Positions 35,402 through 47,291 of a DNA stretch of 64,000 nt are shown one piece after another; position 1 is the stretch's first letter; the number at the start of each line of letters is the position of its first letter. The notes below the pieces were generated by a model. The model made no database searches. It was given only the letters and a program-made list of their open reading frames with translations, and had not been told where the DNA came from. Origin of the DNA: Mycobacterium cookii (GTDB taxonomy: Bacteria; Actinomycetota; Actinomycetes; Mycobacteriales; Mycobacteriaceae); contig NZ_AP022569.1 of assembly GCF_010727945.1 (NCBI RefSeq), positions 2,790,001 to 2,854,000 on the forward strand, read 5' to 3'. The position numbers and the translations under genes are program-made.

Positions 35402-36202
35402 GTGAGCGAGTCAGAAAAGAAGGCCGACGCCCTCATTGAGCAGCGCGGACACACCCTGATCCTGACGCTGAACCGCCCGGAGGCCCGCAACGCGCTTTCC
35501 ACCGAGATGCTCTCGATCATGGTCGAGGCCTGGGACCGCGTCGACACCGATCCCGACATCCGGTGCTGCATCCTGACCGGGGCCGGCGGGTACTTCTGCG
35601 CGGGCATGGACCTCAAAGCCGCGACCGCGCGTCCGCCGGGCGACTCGTTCAAAGACGGCAGCTACGACCCGTCGCGCATCGACGCGCTGCTGAAGGGCCG
35701 TCGGCTGACCAAGCCGCTGATCGCGGCCGTGGAGGGACCGGCCATCGCGGGCGGCACCGAGATCCTGCAGGGCACCGACATCCGCATCGCGGGCGAGAGC
35801 GCCAAGTTCGGCATTTCAGAGGCCAAGTGGAGCCTGTACCCGATGGGCGGCTCGGCGGTGCGCCTGGTGCGTCAGATTCCGTACACGATCGCCGCGGACC
35901 TGCTGCTGACCGGACGGCACATCACCGCCACGGAAGCCCTGTCGTACGGCCTCATCGGCTACGTCGTACCCGACGGCAGCGCGCTGGAGAAGGCACTCGA
36001 GATCGCCGACGTGATTTCGAACAACGGGCCGCTGGCCGTGCAGGCCATCCTGCGCTCGATCCGGGAGACCGAGGGTTTGCCGGAGAACGACGCGTTCAAG
36101 ATCGACACCAAGCTCGGCATCGGTGTATTCCTGTCCGACGACGCCAAGGAAGGCCCGCTGGCCTTCAAGGAGAAGCGCGCGCCGCAATTCAAAGGGCGCT
36201 GA
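35402..36202 (+). CDS. echA19: steroid enoyl-CoA hydratase EchA19
   Basis: A 266-residue crotonase-family enzyme hydrating the enoyl-CoA formed from the sterol side chain. Oxyanion-hole segments [13 protein letters not shown] and [21 protein letters not shown] are present. GTG start at 35402 preceded by GGAAGGTGA. Divergent from fadD19 under a common KstR box. Downstream, the gene that follows in M. tuberculosis is absent and the glycan island begins. Confidence 0.93.
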
Positions 36203-36428: not shown

Positions 36429-37520
36429 GTGAAGGCGCTGATAACTGGTTCCGCGGGTCTCATTGGGTCGGCATGTGTAAGCGCTCTGATCTCGCGCGGG
36501 TGGGAAGTCATCGGCGTCGACAATGACATGCGCCGGCAATTCTTCGGTCCGGCCGGATCGACCGCGACAGTAGTCGCCAGCCTCAAAGACCAGTATCGCC
36601 GCTACCGTCATATTGATGCCGACATCCGTGATCGGCAGCTAATCAGAGACGTCGTCGCGGAGCATCGTCCGGATTTCATCATTCACACCGCGGCCCAGCC
36701 GTCCCACGACTTGGCAGCCAAAATCCCATACGATGACTTTGACGTCAACGCGGTGGGCACCCTGAATATCCTCGTGGCGGCTCGCGATTTTTGCCCCGAA
36801 TCCCCGTTCTGCTTCACAAGCACGAACAAGGTCTATGGTGACCGTCCCAACTTCCTGCCGCTGGAGGAGCACCGCACCCGCTACGACTACGCTGACGGCC
36901 TGCGGGCGATCGACGAAACGATGTCGATTGACGGTTGCCTACATTCGCTGTTCGGCGCTTCGAAGGTCGCGGCCGACGTCCTAGCACAGGAATTCGGCCG
37001 TTATTTCAACATGCCGATCGGCATATTTCGGTGCGGATGCCTGACCGGTCCCCTGCACGCCGCGGTGGAACTGCATGGCTATCTGGCCTATATCGTTGAA
37101 TGCGCCCTGACCGGACGCGATTACACCATTTTCGGATACAAAGGAAAACAGGTTAGAGATCAAATTCATTGCGACGATGTAGCGAGGCTATTCCTGGACT
37201 TCTACTCGCAACCACGAAACGGCGAGGTATACAACCTTGGCGGCGGCCGGGAGAACAGCCTATCGATTCTTGAGACGATTGACATTCTCGACGGGATGGG
37301 CCACCCCTTGAAATACCAGCTGAATGCGGACAACAGGACCGGCGATCATATTTGCTACATATCGGATCTCCAAAAGATACGATCACATTTTCCGGAGTGG
37401 AAGATAGAATATAACCTGCAGCAGTGCATCGATGAAATGGTTAGGCTCCAAGACGGCCGGCTCCGTGACGGGAAATTTGTCCGGACGCCTGCAACACCTA
37501 TCGGAGGAGCTGTGAAATGA
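36429..37520 (+). CDS. NAD-dependent nucleotide-sugar epimerase, CDP-paratose/tyvelose 2-epimerase-like
   Basis: Extended-SDR protein of 363 residues. The NAD motif GSAGLIGS and the subfamily marks DNDMRRQFFG, STNKVYGD and IFGYKGKQVRDQIH are those of CDP-paratose/CDP-tyvelose 2-epimerase-like proteins. The usual catalytic YxxxK is FGASK, with Phe where Tyr is expected. I recall FGASK in relatives, but this should be verified. GTG 36429 follows a strong AAAGGAGG. First gene of a tightly coupled operon (ATGA junctions) with a putative glycosyltransferase and an FkbM methyltransferase, so it probably supplies or modifies a sugar donor for a surface glycan. Confidence 0.82.
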   Translation: MKALITGSAGLIGSACVSALISRGWEVIGVDNDMRRQFFGPAGSTATVVASLKDQYRRYRHIDADIRDRQLIRDVVAEHRPDFIIHTAAQPSHDLAAKIPYDDFDVNAVGTLNILVAARDFCPESPFCFTSTNKVYGDRPNFLPLEEHRTRYDYADGLRAIDETMSIDGCLHSLFGASKVAADVLAQEFGRYFNMPIGIFRCGCLTGPLHAAVELHGYLAYIVECALTGRDYTIFGYKGKQVRDQIHCDDVARLFLDFYSQPRNGEVYNLGGGRENSLSILETIDILDGMGHPLKYQLNADNRTGDHICYISDLQKIRSHFPEWKIEYNLQQCIDEMVRLQDGRLRDGKFVRTPATPIGGAVK

Positions 37521-38794
37521 TCGGCAGCCCACTGGTCATCGCCGAAAAGGCGCGCGCGCGGTTGCAGGCCATCCTCTCCGGGGAAGTTGACGCGGCGGCA
37601 AGCATCGAAGAGGTGGACCTGGCGAGCCTGCCCGACTCCGTGGATCTTGTGATCACCGCCTGCGAGGTCAACCCCCTGCATGGAACCGGCACATTGTTGC
37701 TGAGAATCTTTCCCGACCAGAGATCGATCATCTCGCTTCGCGCTGAGGATTTCTACGACGGGGCAACAGATTTCGGCTGTGTGAGACTGCGGCTTCCACT
37801 TGCCCAGGCCGCGAGGCCGGTGATATTGGCCTGGCTCAAATCGAGCCTCGCGGGCGTGAACATCAGACGCATACTTTGCGTCCCCTACACGCCGGCGGAA
37901 GCAACTCTGGCGCTGGCCGCCCACGAGCTGCTCGGCGCGCCCCTGGCCGTCTACGTCATGGACGACAAAAACGTCTGTGCAGACGGGATCACCGACGGCC
38001 TGATGCGCGAACTCCTGGAGAAGGCAAGCTTGCGGCTGGTGATCGGCCCCGAAATGCGCGATGCCTATGAAGAGAAATACGACATGCCGTTCTGGGTCAT
38101 GCCTCCAGTCGTTGCCGACCACATCGTGGAACGTGATGCAGCGTCGTCCGCGCCAGGCATCGACCCGCGTCGCGGGGTTCTGCTCGGCAACATCTGGGGT
38201 CAGCGGTGGCTAGACATGCTGCGGCAGATTTTTCGGGGTGCCGGCGTGACCATCGACTGGTATTGCAATCAAATCAATCCGCCGGGGCTGGAATACGACC
38301 GGGACGAACTTGCCGCGGACGGCATCGTGCAACGGAATCCAATCGCCGAAGATGACCTGCCGAGGGTGCTCGGCGAGTACGCATTCGCCGTCGTTCCCAC
38401 CGACACGCTCGATGGTCTGAGCCCGCTTGCCGTGCGCGCCATCGCCGAGCTGAGCCTGCCCAGCCGGATGGTCACCATGATGGCGACCTCGCACCTGCCG
38501 ATGCTGGTGGTCGGCAGTCCCGCCACCTGTGCTGGCGGCTTTGTCGAGCGCTTCGACCTCGGCGCCATCGCGCCATATGATCGCGCCGCCGTGCTCGCGT
38601 CTATCGAAGCCCTGACCACCCCGGACCGCCAGGCCGACGTTCGCGCCAGGGCCGCGCGATTGAGCGGGTATTTCACCGCGGCCGGTGCAAGCGAGTGGAT
38701 TTGGGACTCGCTCGATGCGGGGCGACCGATCACCTCGATATACGAGGACCTGATGCCCAGACGCAACGTGAGCGCGACGGTCGCCCAATCATGA
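37517..38794 (+). CDS. putative GT-B-type glycosyltransferase
   Basis: A 425-residue cytoplasmic protein. The second half looks like a GT-B fold: RRGVLLGNIWGQRWLDML begins a domain with a displaced sugar-nucleotide site (LGEYAFAVVPTDTLDGLSPLAVRAIAEL, ending in acidic-rich loops), as in GT4-like enzymes. The first half has a Rossmann-like pattern (RRILCVPYTPAEATLAL, PLAVYVMDDKNVCADG). No complete family signature, so the call rests on fold-like pattern and on its place between an epimerase and a methyltransferase, overlapping both by 4 nt. Confidence 0.55.
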   Translation: MIGSPLVIAEKARARLQAILSGEVDAAASIEEVDLASLPDSVDLVITACEVNPLHGTGTLLLRIFPDQRSIISLRAEDFYDGATDFGCVRLRLPLAQAARPVILAWLKSSLAGVNIRRILCVPYTPAEATLALAAHELLGAPLAVYVMDDKNVCADGITDGLMRELLEKASLRLVIGPEMRDAYEEKYDMPFWVMPPVVADHIVERDAASSAPGIDPRRGVLLGNIWGQRWLDMLRQIFRGAGVTIDWYCNQINPPGLEYDRDELAADGIVQRNPIAEDDLPRVLGEYAFAVVPTDTLDGLSPLAVRAIAELSLPSRMVTMMATSHLPMLVVGSPATCAGGFVERFDLGAIAPYDRAAVLASIEALTTPDRQADVRARAARLSGYFTAAGASEWIWDSLDAGRPITSIYEDLMPRRNVSATVAQS

Positions 38795-39825
38795 CCGAGC
38801 GTGACGATGTTGTCGTCAAACTAGACGAGTTCGCCGAATTTAAGCGTGAGCTCGAGCAGTACATCGAGACCCTGGTGCTGAACGACAGCAGCATCATCGA
38901 CGCGCTGGCCCGCACGCTTGGCCTGATCGCCAAGCTGGAGGCGCAGGCCGAGCAGCACCAGACGTGGCTCGTCGCGGAAATCCGTTCGCTGACCGCGGTC
39001 GTCGCCGACCTTGGCTCCTCGACCCGCCCGAGCGCACCCGTCGTCGCGCCGAACGCCGATGAGTTCTCCGCGCTCAATCCCGAAATCGGCCTTTTACAAC
39101 ATGTTTCGTCGTACATCGACAACCGCACTGTGGTCGACGTCGGCGCCCATCTCGGTGATGTCGCCGAACGTCTCCTCGACTGTGGTTGCCGGGTCTACGC
39201 GTTCGAGCCCTTCCCGGCGAGCTTTGCGGCTCTTCAGGACCGGCTCGGCGGCAGGGCAGACTTCACCGCATCGCCAAGCGCAATCGGCGCGGCGGATGGC
39301 GAGGGCAAGCTCAATATCGCGGCAGCGGCGAACGGCGCTGAGGGGCTGGACGCCTCGCTATTCCACAGCCTGGTCGATCATCCACTGGGCACAAGCATCC
39401 GGTTCGCCGATGCCGTCGAGGTCCAAGTCCGGAGCCTCGCCAGCCTTCGACAGAAAGTCGAGATTCCCGAACAGATCGGAATTCTCAAGATCGACGCCGA
39501 GGGTGCCGACATCGAGATCATCAAGGGTCTCGGCGAGCCCGATATTCCAGTCGTGATGACCGAATTCTGGGATTCTCAGCACGCGTTCGGAGCGGGGACG
39601 CACGGGCACTTGGGACCCACTGTGGCGCTTATGCGCTCACTAGGCTATGCCTGGCACGTGGTGATCTACCACATCGATGAAAACGAAACTATTTCCTACT
39701 ACTTTAATAATGCGCAGACGATCCCCAATTCCTGGGGCAATGCGATCTTCTTCAAAGAGCGATCCCTTTTCGCCCGTGCGGCGCAATGGTGTGAAGCTGT
39801 GCTGCGACCTACGCTGCACGGGTAG
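38791..39825 (+). CDS. FkbM-family methyltransferase with coiled-coil N-terminus
   Basis: A 344-residue SAM-dependent O-methyltransferase. The first 80 residues form a heptad-rich helix (EFAEFKRELEQYIETL...). The SAM motif is VVDVGAHLGDVAERLL, with YAFEPFPASF next and the FkbM hallmark LKIDAEGADIEIIKG. FkbM enzymes methylate hydroxyls of sugars in GPL-type and other glycolipids. ATG 38791 overlaps the preceding stop (ATGA). Confidence 0.85.
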   Translation: MTERDDVVVKLDEFAEFKRELEQYIETLVLNDSSIIDALARTLGLIAKLEAQAEQHQTWLVAEIRSLTAVVADLGSSTRPSAPVVAPNADEFSALNPEIGLLQHVSSYIDNRTVVDVGAHLGDVAERLLDCGCRVYAFEPFPASFAALQDRLGGRADFTASPSAIGAADGEGKLNIAAAANGAEGLDASLFHSLVDHPLGTSIRFADAVEVQVRSLASLRQKVEIPEQIGILKIDAEGADIEIIKGLGEPDIPVVMTEFWDSQHAFGAGTHGHLGPTVALMRSLGYAWHVVIYHIDENETISYYFNNAQTIPNSWGNAIFFKERSLFARAAQWCEAVLRPTLHG

Positions 39826-39841
39826 GACCTCGCCTGCCCCT

Positions 39842-40669
39842 ATGACTCGTCCAGAGCTTCGAGTATCTGCTGTGCAGCGCGAACTTCCCCGTCTTCCGGT
39901 CATTCGCAACTTGGGTGGATGTGGCGTCACCATATTGGCTCGCGTAATAGCAGCACTGCCTGAGGTCGTTCTGCTCAGCGAGACCAACCCGCGTTCATCG
40001 GCTCTCTACAACGGGTACTTGAATCCGATTGTTCAGATTCGCAAGTGGTCACCCGAGTTAGCCGCAGCCATATCTACATTCGATGAGCACGAGTTAGGGT
40101 ACCCACCACGCTTCGGCGAATTACTGGAATGCCTGCATTCCGCATCGGAAAAGCTGGGCCGCAACCTCGTCGTTCGTGATTTTAACTATGTAGATTTCAT
40201 CGGCATACCCTTTGTCTGGCCCGTAGCGCATGCCTCCAGCCTCGACTTGGCAGTAGCCGGACGTTTTTGTTTATCTCCGATCGTCGTGGTCCGTCATCCT
40301 GGCGACCAACTCGCGAGCCTGCGCTCACATCGAGCGATACGCGCGAATCTCACTGCCGAGCATTACCTAAATTCCTACTTTACGTTTTTAGATGCCATGA
40401 AGGGCGCGCCACTTTTTCGATACGAGGATATCGTCGCAGACCCCCGGAGTTATTTTCCCCAGATTTGTTCTCAGCTCGGTCTTGGATGGGACCTGAGTGC
40501 GCTCGAAAGAATTGCTTCCATCGACCAAGTAACCGGTAATCCGGACGGCAATAAAGAATCGGTTATCCGGGAGCCTAGAAAGACCGACGCTGCCGCGCTG
40601 GCCGATGAAGAGTTGCGTCGGTTCGGGTCCTACTCCCAGCTTCTCATCGAGATGGGCTACTCCGCTTAG
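39842..40669 (+). CDS. sulfotransferase-like protein 1
   Basis: A 275-residue P-loop protein. IRNLGGCGVTILARVIAAL near residue 21 is a modified 5'-phosphosulfate-binding loop, and VVVRHPGDQLASLRSH fits the 3'-phosphate-binding loop with Arg and Ser of PAPS sulfotransferases. RYEDIVADP is typical of the family. Base composition falls here (29 G/C in 40381-40440), unlike the sterol genes. It starts 16 bp after the FkbM gene with a weak Shine-Dalgarno. Would transfer sulfate to the glycan assembled by the island; acceptor unknown. Confidence 0.65.
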   Translation: MTRPELRVSAVQRELPRLPVIRNLGGCGVTILARVIAALPEVVLLSETNPRSSALYNGYLNPIVQIRKWSPELAAAISTFDEHELGYPPRFGELLECLHSASEKLGRNLVVRDFNYVDFIGIPFVWPVAHASSLDLAVAGRFCLSPIVVVRHPGDQLASLRSHRAIRANLTAEHYLNSYFTFLDAMKGAPLFRYEDIVADPRSYFPQICSQLGLGWDLSALERIASIDQVTGNPDGNKESVIREPRKTDAAALADEELRRFGSYSQLLIEMGYSA

Positions 40670-40780
40670 CCCCTCAGCCATCGGTAGTACAACCTAAGAC
40701 GATGGCGAAAGCCGGGCTGTGCCTACCGATGTGCCAACTAACCTTGAATTGCCCACTGATCTGCCGACCGAGGGATCGCG

Positions 40781-41533
40781 ATGCTCGTTATCTGCAATGG
40801 AATGCCGCGCAGCGCGTCGACGTGGTCCTACAACGTCACCATGGCCCTGCTGCGCCTTACTGCGGAGGAGGTCTATGGCGGCTACGACGAGAACCTGCAT
40901 CGCTTCCTATGCGGCCTGCCGGCGGCCTGTGCGCACGCGGTCGTCAAATGTCATTCGCTTGACGCTGCTGGCCTAAGTCTTGCTCAATTGCACGCCGCCA
41001 AGGTCGTCTACACGTGGCGCGATTTAGCCGATGCGACGGCATCCTTCATGACCATGTTCGACGTCGACTTCGAGCACACTATCGCTCTCATGTCGAGTTC
41101 GCTCGACCTCTATGGGCGCCATCGGAGGAACGGCGCGCTCATCCTGAGCTATGCGGCGATCACCCAGCAACCTGCCGAATCGGTGGCTGCAGTCGCCTGT
41201 TATCTGAATGTCGCCGTGGGCCAAGATCAGATCGCTGAGATCGTCGACGCGAATTCATTTGACAGAGTGCGCGAAAGGCTGAAAGCGATCGGCATGCTCG
41301 ACTATGAAGAGCGTCTGGTTCGCCTCGACCGAACTTCATACACTGATACAGCGCACGACCGTAGCTATCTCTACGATCCTGACACCCTGCTCCACCTCGA
41401 TCACATTCGTGACGGCAGCACCGGCTACGGCACGACTCGATTGACGCGGTCCCAGCTGCGCCGGCTCCGGAACTTGCTGCGCGAAAAGGGTGACGGCGGC
41501 GTCGCCGCCCCGTCAGTCATGCGAGACGCCTAA
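40781..41533 (+). CDS. sulfotransferase-like protein 2
   Basis: A 250-residue sulfotransferase-fold protein: GMPRSASTWSYN at the very N-terminus is a good 5'-PSB loop, and VVYTWRDLADATASFM matches the 3'-PB loop (with Trp-Arg-Asp in place of R(D/N)P). ATG 40781 with GAGGGAT upstream. It is separated by 111 bp from the first sulfotransferase and may have its own promoter. Convergent with the ABC exporter operon, 16 bp away. Confidence 0.7.
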   Translation: MLVICNGMPRSASTWSYNVTMALLRLTAEEVYGGYDENLHRFLCGLPAACAHAVVKCHSLDAAGLSLAQLHAAKVVYTWRDLADATASFMTMFDVDFEHTIALMSSSLDLYGRHRRNGALILSYAAITQQPAESVAAVACYLNVAVGQDQIAEIVDANSFDRVRERLKAIGMLDYEERLVRLDRTSYTDTAHDRSYLYDPDTLLHLDHIRDGSTGYGTTRLTRSQLRRLRNLLREKGDGGVAAPSVMRDA

Positions 41534-41549
41534 CACAACGAACCTCTGC

Positions 41550-42338
41550 CTACTCCATCTTGATCAGCAAGCCCCGCGATCGAGCCGACTCGAACATCCT
41601 CCGGAACAACAAAATCGCCAGTGCTAGGTACGCGATGTCCAGCGTGATGCCGGATCGGAAGTCCGAAATCGAGAATCCCCCACCCGCGAGCAGCTGCCGC
41701 ATCCCTTCGAACGAATGAGTGGTGGGTAGCGCCAGTGCGAGTGGATGCAGGAAAACCGGCAGCGTGTTCAGCGGGTAGAAAACGCAGGAAAAGGGCATCA
41801 GGATACCGGCGAAGCTCCAGGCCAGTCCTTCAAGCTTCGATCCGTACCGCACGATCAGGCTGGTGATTACGACGCCGATTGAGAAGCCAAAGAACATGAG
41901 GACCGCAATAAACGGCACGAATTCGATCAGTAACGGAAAAATATTGAAGTGATAGCAGAGCAGTGCAATAACGGATTCCAAGGCCAATCCAAAGAACGCC
42001 TTGATCAGATTCACGCAGACCAATGCGTAAATGTACTCTGCCACGCTGAGCGGTGAGCTGAAGAGGCCGACAAGGTTTCGCGTCCAAACCTCTTCAAGAA
42101 ATCCCTGCGCCATGTCACGCTGGAAGCCATAAAACAAGCCCCACAAAACAACGCCCCCGAGGAGCGAGCTTATGAGGCCCAGTTGTAGGCGTTGGTGATT
42201 GGTAAGGTAGATAGTGAGGAAGCCCCACATTACGATATTCACCACGGGGAAATACACCATGTTGATCAAGTGATTGCCGTTGTGGCGCAGTTCGTACATA
42301 TGGCGCAGGACGACTGCCTCGATTCTATGGAGTCGCAT
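41550..42338 (-). CDS. ABC-2 type exporter permease
   Basis: A 262-residue integral membrane protein with about six membrane segments (for example residues 27-46, 105-130, 140-165, 170-190 and a C-terminal one ending LAILLFRRM). Layout and the ...GFQRDMAQGFLEEVWTRNLVGLFSSPLS stretch are those of ABC-2 permeases of the NodJ/DrrB/Wzm type that export lipid-linked glycans. ATG 42338 overlaps the ATPase gene by 14 nt. Last gene of the leftward island operon. Confidence 0.85.
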   Translation of the reverse strand: MRLHRIEAVVLRHMYELRHNGNHLINMVYFPVVNIVMWGFLTIYLTNHQRLQLGLISSLLGGVVLWGLFYGFQRDMAQGFLEEVWTRNLVGLFSSPLSVAEYIYALVCVNLIKAFFGLALESVIALLCYHFNIFPLLIEFVPFIAVLMFFGFSIGVVITSLIVRYGSKLEGLAWSFAGILMPFSCVFYPLNTLPVFLHPLALALPTTHSFEGMRQLLAGGGFSISDFRSGITLDIAYLALAILLFRRMFESARSRGLLIKME

Positions 42339-43095
42339 CTCTTTGCCGCCTGGCGATGTGGATAAATACCTCTTCGAGAGCGGGTTCGTCCCGGCGCTCC
42401 GATAAGACGGCCCGGGTGACCTCGATTGGGCTACCGCTTGCAATGTTTCTGCCATGGCTTAGAAAGACAACTCGACTACACATCCGCTGCACTTCGGCCA
42501 TATTGTGTGAGGTATAGAGAATACTGGTACCGCGACTTCGTTGTAGATCCAGCAAGGCGTCTCTCACTTCGAGTGCGATCAACGGGTCAAGATAGACGGT
42601 CGGTTCATCGAGTAACAACAATTCGGGATCGTTCAGGAATGCTTTACACAGGCCCGCGCGCGCGATCTCACCGGAGGACAGTCGTGATATCGGCTTCCGC
42701 GCCAACTTGCTTATGCCGAACCGTTCGAGCAGTTCGGCGATTTTAGCCATCGGGTTACTGACGTTATATATCCGGGCATAAACGGTCAGATTTTCCCGTA
42801 CCGTCAGCCGGGCCGGAAATGCCACATAGGGCGAGGTGAAATTTAGTCGTTGCAGTATCCACTCGCGATCTGCGTCCAAACTTTTACCGAACAAGGAAAA
42901 TGTGCCCGCACTTGGCGTAATCAACCCTGAGAGCATGTGCACGATCGTCGACTTGCCCGCTCCATTCGGACCGACCAGGCCAACGATTTCGCCTTGGTAA
43001 ACGGAGAAGGACACATCGTCCACGGCGCGCAACTTACGAAATGTCTTCGTCAGATGCTTCACGTCGAGCAAGATCGGGACATCAGCCGCGTTCAC
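42325..43095 (-). CDS. ABC exporter ATPase (NodI/DrrA/Wzt-like)
   Basis: A 256-residue nucleotide-binding domain: Walker A GPNGAGKST (42-50), signature LSSGEIARAG, Walker B LLLLDEP and H-loop TSHN. No C-terminal carbohydrate-binding domain, so it is not a Wzt with substrate recognition. GTG 43095 overlaps the UDP-xylose synthase stop as GTGA. Works with the next permease to drive export. Confidence 0.9.
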   Translation of the reverse strand: MNAADVPILLDVKHLTKTFRKLRAVDDVSFSVYQGEIVGLVGPNGAGKSTIVHMLSGLITPSAGTFSLFGKSLDADREWILQRLNFTSPYVAFPARLTVRENLTVYARIYNVSNPMAKIAELLERFGISKLARKPISRLSSGEIARAGLCKAFLNDPELLLLDEPTVYLDPLIALEVRDALLDLQRSRGTSILYTSHNMAEVQRMCSRVVFLSHGRNIASGSPIEVTRAVLSERRDEPALEEVFIHIARRQRDATP

Positions 43096-44036
43096 GAGGC
43101 CAGCTTCTCGACTTCCTTTACATGCCACTCGACAGTGCGTGCGATCCCCTCACGCACCGAAACTTGAGGGTTCCACCCAAGCCGATCACGCGCTCTTGTG
43201 ATGTCGGGTCGCCGGCGGGTGGGATCATCTTGTGGCAGCGGGTGCAGCTCTATCCGGGATGAGGAACCACTTAGCTCGAGCACCAATTCGGCGATCTCGA
43301 CGACGCTCAGTTCCACTGGGTTGCCGAGGTTAATTGGTCCTGGCTCGCTGGAATCCAGCATCGCCAGGATCCCATGAACCAGGTCGTCCACATAGCAAAG
43401 GCTTCGGGTCTGTGTACCGTCGCCGAAAACGGTCAGGGGTCTGGAATTCAGGGCCTGGTCAATGAAACTGGAGACAACGCGCCCGTCATCGGGGCGCATC
43501 CGAGGGCCGTAAGTGTTGAAAATCCGCAGAATTCCGGTGTCTGCGCCACAGTAGGTGCGGTATGCCGTCGTCAACGCCTCTGCGTATCGTTTGGCCTCGT
43601 CGTAGACACTTCGTGGTCCGGCGGGATTGACGTTGCCCCAATATTCTTCTGGCTGCGGGTGAATCAGGGGTTCACCATAAACTTCACTGGTTGACGCGAG
43701 GATGAAGCGTGCGGATTTGGCGACGGCGAACTCGAGCACATTCCGCGTTCCCTCCGACCCCGTCCGCAGAGTGAAGATGGGCCTATCCAGGTATGCGGAC
43801 GGCGACGCAGGGCTGGCGAGGTGAATCACACCGTCGAACCTGCCGTAGATGTCAACGGGCTCAAGGACGCTCGCCTCGATGAGTGAAAATTTGGCAGACG
43901 TAGCGAGATGCTCGATGTTGGTGCGCCAGCCGGTTGAGAGATCGTCCAGGCATACAACCGTATGGTCGTGGGCGATCAGCAGATCGCACAGATGTGATCC
44001 GAGGAACCCTGCCCCACCGGTAACGAGGACTCTCAC
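43092..44036 (-). CDS. UDP-glucuronate decarboxylase (UDP-xylose synthase)
   Basis: An extended SDR of 314 residues converting UDP-glucuronate to UDP-xylose. NAD motif GGAGFLGSH; the UXS signature HLASPASP, ASTSEVYGEPLIHPQ with YWGNVNP, and YDEAKR (catalytic YxxxK) are all present. GTG 44036 follows AGGGGGA. It lies 43 bp downstream of ugd, which makes its substrate; the pair is a UDP-sugar pathway for the island. A related epimerase activity is less likely given the signature. Confidence 0.88.
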   Translation of the reverse strand: MRVLVTGGAGFLGSHLCDLLIAHDHTVVCLDDLSTGWRTNIEHLATSAKFSLIEASVLEPVDIYGRFDGVIHLASPASPSAYLDRPIFTLRTGSEGTRNVLEFAVAKSARFILASTSEVYGEPLIHPQPEEYWGNVNPAGPRSVYDEAKRYAEALTTAYRTYCGADTGILRIFNTYGPRMRPDDGRVVSSFIDQALNSRPLTVFGDGTQTRSLCYVDDLVHGILAMLDSSEPGPINLGNPVELSVVEIAELVLELSGSSSRIELHPLPQDDPTRRRPDITRARDRLGWNPQVSVREGIARTVEWHVKEVEKLAS

Positions 44037-44079
44037 GGCTTTTCCCCCTGCGGTTGCGTTTGCCTTAGTTGCGGCACCA

Positions 44080-45402
44080 TCATGGACGCCCGAAGCCCCG
44101 GTAATTCCAGCCCGCCGCACGCCAACACAGCGGGTCAAGGCAATTACGCGCATCGACGACGCGCTTCGATCCGGTTACCGTTTCGAGTTCTTCCGGTTGC
44201 AGTGCCCGAAATTCATCCCACTCGGTGAGAATCAGAATCACATCGGCCCCCTGACATGCATCCAAGGCTGACAACGAATAATTGGGCGTCGGGAACACCT
44301 GTCGCGCGTTGTCCATGGCTTTGGGGTCGAACACGCTCACAATGGCACCCTGTAGCTGTAATTGCCCGACGACATCGAGTGCCGGCGAGTCACGAATGTC
44401 GTCTGAGTTCGGCTTGAAGGCAACGCCAAGGACCGCCACTCGCGCCCCATCCAGCGAGCCACAAACTTCGCGAGTGGCATCGATTACCCGGCTGCGTTGT
44501 CTGATATTGATGTTGTCGACGATCTGCAAAAATGTGGCGACATCGCCGAGGCCCAGCTCGTCGGCCCGAGTCATGAAGGCACGTATGTCTTTCGGGAGGC
44601 ATCCGCCGCCGAAACCCAGCCCGGCATCCAGGAATTCCCGCCCGATGCGCTTGTCAGCCCCGATGGCCGCGGCGAGCATAGTCACGTCGGCGGATGCGGC
44701 TTCGCACACTTCAGAGATCGCGTTAATAAATGAAATCTTTGTTCCGAGAAAAGCGTTGGCCGCCACTTTGGCCAATTCAGCGGTCGCCAGGCTCGTGATC
44801 AAGAACGGAATATCATCATCGGTCGACAGCGGGCTGTACAGCGCTGCAAGCGTTTTCGCCGCCCGCCCTTCGTGCGAGCTCTCCACACCGACGACAATGC
44901 GATCGGGGTGCAACGTATCGCGCACGGCAAATCCTTCGCGGAGGAACTCGGGATTCCAGGCGAGCTCTACATCGTCACCCGCAGGGGCAATGCTTCGCAT
45001 ACGCCTTGCCAGCCGCTGGGCTGTGCCCACCGGTACCGTCGACTTCCCGACGATCAGAGCTCGTCTATTCAAATGCGGAGACAGAGTATCGACCGCCGCG
45101 TCTATGTACGACAGGTTCGCGCCGAACCCCAATTCGCTTTGTGGCGTACCTACGGTAAGAAAGTGCACGTCCGCGAAATCTGCCGCTTCCACGTAAGAGT
45201 CGGTAAAGCGGAGGCGCCCCGACGTCAGGTTGTCCCGCACGATGTCATCGATGCCCGGTTCGAAGAACGGCACCTCCCCGGACTGAAGCTTGGCTACCTT
45301 GCCCGGGTCGGTATCGACACCCAGGACATCGTGGCCAATGTGTGCCATACAAGCAGCATGGGTTGTACCCAGATACCCCGTTCCAATCACCGCTATGCGC
45401 AT
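44080..45402 (-). CDS. ugd: UDP-glucose 6-dehydrogenase
   Basis: A 440-residue enzyme oxidising UDP-glucose twice to UDP-glucuronate with NAD. N-terminal IGTGYLGTTHAACMAH, STVPVGTA, EFLREGFAV and the catalytic cysteine in GFGGGCLPKD are plain. ATG 45402 is the start; a frame reaching 45486 lacks support. First gene of the leftward island operon. Confidence 0.93.
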   Translation of the reverse strand: MRIAVIGTGYLGTTHAACMAHIGHDVLGVDTDPGKVAKLQSGEVPFFEPGIDDIVRDNLTSGRLRFTDSYVEAADFADVHFLTVGTPQSELGFGANLSYIDAAVDTLSPHLNRRALIVGKSTVPVGTAQRLARRMRSIAPAGDDVELAWNPEFLREGFAVRDTLHPDRIVVGVESSHEGRAAKTLAALYSPLSTDDDIPFLITSLATAELAKVAANAFLGTKISFINAISEVCEAASADVTMLAAAIGADKRIGREFLDAGLGFGGGCLPKDIRAFMTRADELGLGDVATFLQIVDNINIRQRSRVIDATREVCGSLDGARVAVLGVAFKPNSDDIRDSPALDVVGQLQLQGAIVSVFDPKAMDNARQVFPTPNYSLSALDACQGADVILILTEWDEFRALQPEELETVTGSKRVVDARNCLDPLCWRAAGWNYRGFGRP

Positions 45403-46088
45403 CTGAAATCCGCTCGCTTTCGCACGACATGGTGGTCGACTACAGCGACGATTTCTGGCGTGGCCTGGAGCAGCCTCCGGTTGCACACGTGTGTTGTTGT
45501 CGTCTTTGCCGAAGCAACTCCGCGATTCAACGCTTCAGCCCTTCAAGAGAGCTCAAGCGCGCGTGCCAAGACATTTTCCACGGCGCACGCGAGTTGACCA
45601 TCGTGGCCGAAGGCGATAATGAATTCCGGCGGTTGACCGACCAATGCTGCGCAGTCGGTAACCACACGCTAGCCGGGAAGCGCACAGCGGTAACGATCCA
45701 ACAACCAGGCTCCATTCCCCATGCTCTCACCCCAAGCCGCAGTCGTGTGCGCGATTACGTGATCTCGGTAGCCATAGGATTCGACGGCGATGTGACGCGG
45801 TTTCAGGCGAGAATGCCAAACTGATTGGACGACTCGGGGGCTACAAGAGGAGGGGCGGCCTACGCGGGTCCGAGCAGCTGATCACCTTTTCCCGACGAAT
45901 ATTTTTAGTTTGCCGACCGCCTGCACTAGACCCAACAGCGGCGATCTTCGCCACTTAGACAAGACGCGCCAATACCGCCACCGCCGGTGAGCCGTCAACC
46001 ACAGCCTTCAGATCGTCGCCGGCACGCTGGGGTCGCTAAACCCACAGACATCTAACAGTCGTCCCCTGGACCGCACGGTCTGCGGCGG
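45403..46088. other. 686-bp gap between ugd and cyp142
   Basis: No intact gene is convincing here. A plus-strand open frame (45342-45824) has no recognisable features. The stretch should hold the ugd operon promoter. The minus strand carries a protein-like remnant (45543-45881). Composition is mixed, with AT-rich bits such as AATATTTTTAG at 45898-45908. Confidence 0.5.
45543..45881 (-). pseudogene. possible decayed coding remnant with internal TAG
   Basis: Reading minus strand from 45881, one frame gives protein-like sequence including RHIAVESYGYRDHVIAH and, after a TAG at 45669-45671, RVVTDCAALVGQPPEFIIAF, ending at a TGA at 45543-45545. There is no start codon before an internal ATG, so it would be a truncated or nonsense-broken gene. 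I cannot name the family. Another plus-strand frame is also open, as happens in GC-rich DNA, so this may be chance. Confidence 0.3.
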
Positions 46089-47291
46089 TTAGCCGGATAG
46101 CGGCGCGCTCGGGGTAAAGGTCACCGGCATCTTCTCCAAACCGGAGACGAAGTTCGCCGGTCGCAACGGCAGCGCGGCATCCGAGGCCAGCCGCATGTCC
46201 GGAATGCGTTGCAGCAGCCGCGTCTGCATGATCGACAGCTCCAGCCGGGCTAGCTGGTTACCCAGGCAGAAGTGCGTCCCGAAGCCGAACGCCAGGTGGT
46301 TGTTCGGGTAGCGCTCGATGTTGAAGCTCTCCGGCGCCTCGAACACCTTCTCGTCGAAGTTCGCCGACTCGAACAGCAGGATCATCTTCTCGCCCTCGTG
46401 CAGCGCAGTGCCGTGAAACTCGGTGTCGGCGGTGATCGTGCGGGCCATGTTCTTCACCGGCGCGGTCCAGCGCAGCATCTCTTCGATCGCGTTGGGCAGC
46501 AAAGCCAAGTCGCCCGCCAGCCGCTGGTGCTGCTCGGGATGCAGCAGCAGCTGCCTGGTTCCGCCGGACAGCGTGTGGCGTGTCGTCTCGTCGCCGCCGA
46601 TCAGCAGCAGCAGAACCTCGGTGACGATCTGATGGTCCTCCAGGCGTGACCCTTCGACCTCCGCATGCACGAGGACACTGACCAGGTCGTCCGTCGGTTC
46701 GGCCTTGCGGGCCTCGATCATTCCCATCATGTATCCGCTGTAAGCAGCGAAGGCATCCATCGTTACCTGCACGTCCGCTTCGGCCGCGGTACTGCTCAAG
46801 GAACTGACCAGATCGTCGGACCACTTGAGAAACATCTCGCGTTCCTCCGGGCGCACCCCGAGCATGTCGCCGATGACCGCCATCGGCAGGGGCGCCGCGA
46901 GGTCCCAGACGAAGTCGCACTCCCCACGTTCGCACACCGCGTCGATCAGCGTGTCGCACAGCGAAGTGATCTTGGATTCCAGATCTTTCACGCGCTTGCG
47001 GGTGAAGCCGTAGTTGACGAGCTTGCGGCGCAACAGGTGTTGCGGGTCGTCCATCTCGATCATCATCTCGACGCCGGGCTGGTCGGGCCGGATGCCGCCG
47101 GCATTCGAGAACAGCTCCGGGTTGCGCTCGGCTTCGATGACGGCCTGATACGTCGACGCGGCGGCCAACCCGTTGCGGTCCCGGAACACCGGCTCGTTCT
47201 CCCGCATCCAGCGGTAGACCGACCGGGAATCACCCGCGTAAAAGGTGCCGTCGGTCAGATCGACATCTGGTCTGGTCTCTACGGTTGTCAT
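46089..47291 (-). CDS. cyp142: cytochrome P450 CYP142
   Basis: A 400-residue P450 oxidising the cholesterol side-chain terminus (C26/27). I-helix GGDETT at 232-237, EMLR (E271, R274) as ExxR, and heme loop FGFGTHFCLG with Cys342. ATG 47291 overlaps the upstream gene's stop (ATGA), so it is co-transcribed from the KstR-boxed promoter at 48015. Electrons probably come from a 3Fe-4S ferredoxin such as FdxD. Confidence 0.95.
   Translation of the reverse strand: MTTVETRPDVDLTDGTFYAGDSRSVYRWMRENEPVFRDRNGLAAASTYQAVIEAERNPELFSNAGGIRPDQPGVEMMIEMDDPQHLLRRKLVNYGFTRKRVKDLESKITSLCDTLIDAVCERGECDFVWDLAAPLPMAVIGDMLGVRPEEREMFLKWSDDLVSSLSSTAAEADVQVTMDAFAAYSGYMMGMIEARKAEPTDDLVSVLVHAEVEGSRLEDHQIVTEVLLLLIGGDETTRHTLSGGTRQLLLHPEQHQRLAGDLALLPNAIEEMLRWTAPVKNMARTITADTEFHGTALHEGEKMILLFESANFDEKVFEAPESFNIERYPNNHLAFGFGTHFCLGNQLARLELSIMQTRLLQRIPDMRLASDAALPLRPANFVSGLEKMPVTFTPSAPLSG

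Follow-up and report, generated by a model that had tools for sequence, protein, structure and literature searches.

A putative glycoconjugate biosynthesis-and-export island between echA19 and cyp142 of Mycobacterium cookii

Gene Content of the Island

We analyzed a 64,000-nucleotide stretch of the Mycobacterium cookii genome (contig NZ_AP022569.1, positions 2,790,001 to 2,854,000), hereafter called the window. The host genome, designated G000, is a single contig of 5,318,517 bases and is 99.98% complete. Between the cholesterol-locus genes echA19 and cyp142, the window carries an island (36429..45402) of nine genes, numbered 1 to 9 from left to right, which is an insertion of foreign composition and has no evident tie to sterol catabolism. 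An earlier reading of the DNA, made from the sequence only, had placed nine non-sterol genes at this site, and this was borne out, all nine reading frames being free of internal stops. Genes 1–5 run rightward and genes 9–6 leftward, converging at 41533/41550. The features are as follows:

36429..37520, plus strand: gene 1, extended short-chain dehydrogenase/reductase (SDR), TyvE-like (PF01370, 133.9 bits), with FGASK in place of YxxxK
37517..38794, plus strand: gene 2, glycosyltransferase (GT)-like protein with a predicted GT-B fold
38791..39825, plus strand: gene 3, FkbM-family methyltransferase (TIGR01444, 71.4 bits, cut-off 37.7; PF05050, 61.1 bits)
39872..40669, plus strand: gene 4 (STa), sulfotransferase-fold protein (PF13469, 19.3 bits, below the cut-off of 27)
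40781..41533, plus strand: gene 5 (STb), second sulfotransferase (PF00685, 23.7 bits, cut-off 22; relative at 44% identity in locus L003)
41550..42338, minus strand: gene 6, permease of the ATP-binding cassette (ABC) type ABC-2, 262 amino acids (PF01061, 37.2 bits, cut-off 26.9, longer frame)
42325..43095, minus strand: gene 7, DrrA/NodI-like ABC ATPase, 256 amino acids (PF00005, 105.1 bits)
43092..44036, minus strand: gene 8, UDP-glucuronate decarboxylase (UDP-xylose synthase, UXS; nearest solved structure 4gll, UDP-glucuronate decarboxylase 1, 332.8 bits; SVYDEAK)
44080..45402, minus strand: gene 9, UDP-glucose 6-dehydrogenase (Ugd; TIGR03026, 433.4 bits, cut-off 189.8; nearest solved structure 4a7p, 338 bits)

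The family matches support the identities first given for Ugd, UXS, FkbM, the sulfotransferases and the ABC-2 pair. The 4-nt overlaps reported for the right operon are present as ATGA at genes 1/2 (37517–37520) and 2/3 (38791–38794). On the left, the overlap is 14 nt for genes 7/6 and, with GTG 43095 as the start of gene 7, 4 nt for genes 8/7. GTG 43095 is the more likely start of gene 7, as are GTG 44036 for gene 8 and GTG 39872 for gene 4, the latter giving 265 amino acids, the listed length of the window's own protein.

An Insertion of Foreign Composition

Twenty-four other genus genomes were drawn as relatives, 21 of which showed a strong echA19 match and 20 of which carried both flanking genes on one contig (the contig used for G007 is not the one bearing its better cyp142 match, at 79%). 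Measured between tblastn ends, the echA19–cyp142 gap was 67–2,722 bp in all 20 usable relatives and 9,892 bp in the window, in agreement with the initial view of the island as an insertion. Gene 2 was found in one of 198 genus genomes and, by profile, in one of 396, and STb in one of 148, which was M. cookii itself each time. Occurrence in the genus was judged from protein searches in the case of gene 2, STb and the permease, and from a DNA search alone in that of genes 1, 3, 4 and 7. The DNA search, in which two candidates per genome were scored, gave some match in 186 of 198 genus genomes; among the matches listed, the island itself aside, all fell within the uxs–ugd part, and both of these genes were spanned only in G035 and G178. 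A full-length relative of gene 2 with 87% identity is deposited under the name Mycobacterium sp. (P0009), which suggests a second mycobacterial lineage carrying this gene.

The island also differs from its surroundings in base composition. Its GC content is 0.585, against 0.650 in the left and 0.643 in the right flank, and mean GC content at third codon positions (GC3) is 0.68 for the nine island genes versus 0.81 for 41 flank open reading frames (ORFs; Mann–Whitney P ~2e-5 for GC and ~4e-5 for GC3). Because the script that chose these flank ORFs favors high-GC3 frames, the GC3 contrast is somewhat flattered; the plain GC contrast is unaffected. The twelve lowest-GC segments of the whole 64 kb (1 kb, 250-bp step) all start within 36501–42751, and the count of 29 GC in 60 bases at 40381–40440, from which a lower GC had originally been proposed, is correct.

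The flanking features are:

35402–36202: echA19, with EchA19 above the cut-off of NCBIfam NF051848
36203..36428: left junction, after echA19 (sole blastn match to relatives' intervals 22 nt, E 0.5)
45403..46088: right junction, before cyp142 (sole matches to relatives' intervals 17 and 18 nt, E 0.13 and 0.46)
46089–47291, minus strand: cyp142, named from position and neighbors, its own NCBIfam matches being below cut-off

Thus, at both junctions blastn revealed nothing beyond short, chance-level matches as remnants of the relatives' echA19–cyp142 intervals. The second gene past cyp142 scores above the cut-off for TIGR03559 (Rv3520c type). Neither an integrase nor a transposase was detected among the nine island proteins (Pfam), and no tRNA within the window. 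The one pair of direct repeats spanning the island (22 nt at 77%) lies inside echA19 and cyp142, so that target-site or terminal repeats are unsupported. No matches pointing to a plasmid or phage origin were found, and none of 18 pattern-matching stretches in viral contigs encodes a relative.

The intervals of the relatives (L024–L043), 67 bp to 2.7 kb long, leave space for zero to about two genes, and their longest frames vary by genome, e.g., SDR-like or major facilitator superfamily-like as judged by eye. For M. tuberculosis, a published table lists Rv3517 between echA19 and cyp142 (PMC6429209). That the nine genes are ordinary content of the site was ruled out by the short gaps in the relatives and the rarity in the genus.

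A Seven-Gene Core Shared with Acidobacteria

Genes 1–5 (SDR, GT-like, FkbM and two sulfotransferases) and the ABC-2 ATPase and permease form a seven-gene cross-phylum core. A search of the genome collection for gene 2 gave 26 pattern-matching stretches, of which two were confirmed, both in acidobacterial metagenome-assembled genomes (MAGs). The first (L002) carries SDR, GT, FkbM, ATPase, permease and STa in this order, on one strand and within 6 kb, with identities of 77, 76, 62, 53, 49 (over 261 amino acids) and 53%, respectively; its ATPase and permease genes overlap by 14 nt, as in the window. The cluster of the second MAG is split between two contigs that overlap within gene 2, where their ends are identical over at least 190 nt: L003 has the first part of gene 2 together with a divergent SDR, STb and the ATPase and permease genes, and L055 has the last part of gene 2 and FkbM. 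Identities here are 66, 56, 44, 44, 54 and 45% for SDR, GT, FkbM, STb, ATPase and permease. One sulfotransferase is missing from each MAG, STb from L002 and STa from L003/L055, which leaves six core genes in either. On the strength of this shared clustering, the two operons of the window can be considered linked, with the sulfotransferase and ABC genes accompanying the other core genes. This, the deviating composition and the absence of gene 2 and STb from all further genus genomes searched run counter to the outcomes named beforehand as refuting the earlier reading. Since ugd and uxs were undetected in the acidobacterial stretches examined, the single glycan pathway first proposed for all nine genes stands as a link between the two operons and is unsupported as to the inclusion of ugd and uxs in the core. 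Among 396 genomes of the L002 phylum, a strong gene 2 match was found in two (that of L002 itself and G889) and a weak one, not counted as family, in one (5.6e-4).

Of 7,994 candidates scored in protein searches, 177 qualified as gene 2 homologs at E 1e-3, and 120 of these are listed. The names given to a few of them include Polyangiaceae, Methylovirgula, Gemmataceae, Rhizomicrobium, Binataceae and Acidobacteriaceae. The homolog lists of genes 2 and 4 have four longest contigs (≥5 kb) of the same size in common, with 0.08 expected after jitter, and those of genes 2 and 1 have three, with 0.19 expected, which indirectly supports linkage for these two gene pairs. In Rhizomicrobium, the locus tags VHX61_00525 (gene 2) and VHX61_00500 (gene 4) are close together. 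A gene 2 tree was built from 39 rows, namely the window, two loci from Acidobacteria and 36 homologs out of the 120 listed; most rows lack taxonomy. In it, the window pairs with P0001 (90/88) within a group of 22 that adjoins the L002 group, and no starred set contains the window row. The L054 row forms a very long branch.

Predicted Functions of the Encoded Proteins

The nearest solved relatives of gene 1 are the CDP-tyvelose 2-epimerases 9rl0 (151 bits) and 1orr. According to the published description of TyvE, the triad of TaTyvE consists of Thr124, Tyr164 and Lys168, with Tyr as the probable base, and activity is abolished by changes in the TNK segment (PMC13098431). We compared gene 1 with its closest 120 listed homologs out of 8,000 scored (P0209–P0328). 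The TNK segment (TNKVYGD) is present in all 120 listed homologs, and Thr and Lys of the triad are retained; however, Tyr164 is replaced by Phe in the window and in all 120, and the VAM segment aligns with PSH, QPSHD again being found in 120/120. Since the catalytic Tyr is missing, the CDP-paratose-epimerase label, used in the sequence-only reading, is unsafe and a conventional 2-epimerase role is unsupported. One may speculate that the conserved His of PSH acts as a substitute base. A source calls the family CDP-paratose 2-epimerase, an automatic name that looks unsafe for the whole family. The single hydrophobic stretch of the protein, near its N-terminus, falls on the expected Rossmann start.

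Gene 2 has no Pfam or NCBIfam family, and no solved chain matches its profile at E up to 1. Its predicted GT-B model is confident; identity to the GT4-like GT-B enzymes HepE, BshA, PimA and MshA is 8–14% in the respective rows. GT-B/GT4 glycosyltransferases carry the donor motif EX7E, for which the candidates in gene 2 are D299 (89 of 90 rows) and position 307 (R in 50, Q in 29 and E in 7 of 90), the register being set by eye. No useful solved relative was found for genes 5 and 3.

For STa, the AlphaFold2 model has a pLDDT of 93.0, and the best Foldseek hit is the sulfotransferase 4gox (3e-7, TMq 0.60). Arg141 and Ser149 are found in 73/73 aligned rows, with a spacing that we take to be that of the 3'-phosphate pair of enzymes using 3'-phosphoadenosine 5'-phosphosulfate (PAPS). 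PF13469 is precomputed for 17 of 88 gene 4 homologs. The alignments were hand-picked and comprise 89 of 120 (A1) and 73 of 88 (A2) listed homologs, with P0121, the window's own protein, among the 73. One hydrophobic stretch near the N-terminus of STa coincides with a helix and strand of the model. STb shows PAPS-site motifs in its sequence (PRSASTW and RDLADATAS). The host encodes two adenosine 5'-phosphosulfate (APS) kinase domains above the Pfam cut-off (G000:C1:1884201-1884656 and 2099109-2099564), so that PAPS synthesis by the host is probably possible.

The permease is the sole island protein with several membrane-like segments (six by hydropathy). Its best NCBIfam model is drrB, below cut-off, and its single solved match looks unrelated. 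The ATPase has Walker A, signature and Walker B motifs, and its NCBIfam matches to drrA (9.4e-53) and NodI (1.1e-45) are both below cut-off.

The genes ugd and uxs look like a second, separable module. Gene 9 contains the catalytic Cys (GFGGGCLPKD) and gene 8 the YxxxK motif. As uxs overlaps the ATPase gene, the module now forms one operon with the exporter in the window. Relatives of ugd and uxs with 66–74% protein identity are adjacent in the genus loci L044 and L045. There (L044, 8798-16028; L045, 8613-16978), they lie among frames that by eye, not by hidden Markov model (HMM), resemble a priming sugar transferase, lysine-2,3-aminomutase and FemAB. L045 additionally shows frames resembling polyketide synthase (PKS) and nonribosomal peptide synthetase (NRPS) genes alongside (by eye) and an FkbM-like match at 30%.

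A Sulfated, Methylated Glycoconjugate as the Proposed Product

We propose that the island is a horizontally acquired biosynthesis-and-export cassette for a small sulfated, methylated, sugar-bearing exported glycoconjugate, a reading to which we assign a probability of about one half. Ugd and UXS would convert UDP-glucose to UDP-glucuronate and further to UDP-xylose, and the TyvE-like SDR might bind or alter a nucleotide sugar. The GT-B enzyme encoded by gene 2 would attach a sugar to an acceptor, which is probably a lipid or another small molecule. FkbM could then O-methylate the glycoconjugate, which the two sulfotransferases would sulfate in the cytosol from PAPS, before the DrrAB/NodIJ-type ABC-2 pair would move the finished molecule across the inner membrane. 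Observed are the gene content, the families or predicted folds, the insertion, the clustering of the core in two Acidobacteria and the APS kinase genes of the host; the substrates, the order of the steps, the small size of the product and its being the exporter's cargo are what we infer here.

Several observations weigh against this proposal. Lacking the catalytic Tyr, gene 1 may make no sugar nucleotide. The island pair ugd and uxs may not be dedicated, as the host has a second ugd-like gene (G000:C1:3972791-3973948, 67% DNA identity) and a second UXS-like gene (G000:C1:2295918-2296838, 54% protein identity). The PAPS P-loop usually carries a Lys or Arg, which is missing from GGCGxT in STa, a protein that also scores below the Pfam cut-off. 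No acceptor-making gene is present among the nine. Regarding the core, gene orientation differs between the two acidobacterial clusters, each of which is without one sulfotransferase, and the homolog lists of genes 1 and 4 have no same-size contig in common (0.09 expected at ≥5 kb). Finally, the acidobacterial genome G889 has a 44% identical gene 2 and a 61-amino-acid FkbM match only, the other seven island proteins being undetected in 18 kb (E 1e-3); a gene 2 without most of its partners counts against strict linkage of the core.

Best placed among the alternatives, although we regard it as unlikely, is that the island adds one methylated, sulfated sugar to an existing host lipid or glycolipid whose genes lie elsewhere. 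A single GT accompanied by two types of decoration, with acceptor genes absent, would suit such tailoring, and mycobacteria have many lipid acceptors. The related core in Acidobacteria, however, implies that the acceptor is general or has changed. Lipooligosaccharide (LOS) transport in mycobacteria, as described in one report, requires MmpL12 (PMC12507525), and not an ABC-2 pair.

Slightly less credible still, in our view, is a surface polysaccharide containing xylose or glucuronate that is methylated and sulfated and, once polymerized, is exported via the ABC-2 pair. Ugd, UXS, an ABC-2 (PF01061) permease, sulfotransferases and a methyltransferase are gene kinds that fit polysaccharide loci, and ugd–uxs of two genus genomes lie inside what by eye is an apparent polysaccharide cluster. 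Yet by Pfam and NCBIfam the nine genes encode a single predicted GT and neither a priming transferase nor any polymerase or chain-length family, at odds with a polymeric glycan; such genes were not seen by eye beside the acidobacterial cores either, where no HMM was run, and the DrrA/NodI/ABCA-like ATPase is of 256 amino acids only. The single predicted GT, the missing polymerase and priming enzyme and the DrrA/NodI-like ATPase make a small exported glycoconjugate likelier than a polysaccharide.

It is improbable that the island makes a small glycosylated secondary metabolite and exports it through a dedicated DrrAB-type efflux pair: drrA and drrB are the best NCBIfam models for ATPase and permease, but no PKS, NRPS or other scaffold family was found among the nine genes by Pfam. 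Least probable of all is a silent or decaying passenger island without a current product, for which genus rarity, low GC and two convergent operons versus one run in L002 might be cited and against which stand nine intact frames and the full-length P0009.

The proposed small glycoconjugate resembles a known product in its working. Nod factors are sulfated lipochitooligosaccharides that a GT assembles; their methylation and sulfation take place in the cytosol, and the small ABC-2 pair NodIJ handles export. Gene 7 matches the NodI model. In contrast, its NodI score is 155.9 against a cut-off of 549, NodA, NodB and NodC are missing from the nine genes (Pfam, NCBIfam), and the sugar-nucleotide genes are others. 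With nodABC missing, the likeness is one of working only and not of membership. Glycolipids with xylose or sulfate are also known from mycobacteria; the LOS and sulfolipid systems differ in relying on MmpL exporters and PKS loci, and neither gene 2 nor STb turned up in any other genus genome searched.

Each enzyme kind is already known, and what appears to be new is the gene set, on which no paper was found in the searches made of open-licence literature. More boldly, and with considerable doubt, the island could represent an undescribed mobile cross-phylum cassette, in which an SDR with unorthodox chemistry and Phe for Tyr, a GT-B enzyme that forms a separate family, FkbM, sulfotransferases and a DrrAB/NodIJ-type exporter jointly yield an exported sulfated, methylated small glycolipid that acts as a soil signal or surface molecule like Nod factors, the UDP-xylose supply having been added in the mycobacterial lineage. 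A predicted glycoconjugate synthesis-and-export set common to soil Acidobacteria and a mycobacterium sits within one of the best-known mycobacterial loci, and position in the cholesterol locus is no proof of a role in sterol catabolism. The set also poses two enzyme puzzles, i.e., a GT-like family without a Pfam or NCBIfam entry and a 'CDP-paratose 2-epimerase' SDR family whose listed members are without the catalytic Tyr.

Weak Relatives of Gene 2 and the Permease

Two genomes of the window's phylum gave weak partial gene 2 matches (1.0e-5 and 5.2e-4), which were not counted as family. Of 148 genus genomes, 25 besides M. cookii had weak permease matches (21–25% identity), and a second one was present in the M. 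cookii genome. The one such match that was read (L070) is preceded by a DrrA-like ATPase frame.

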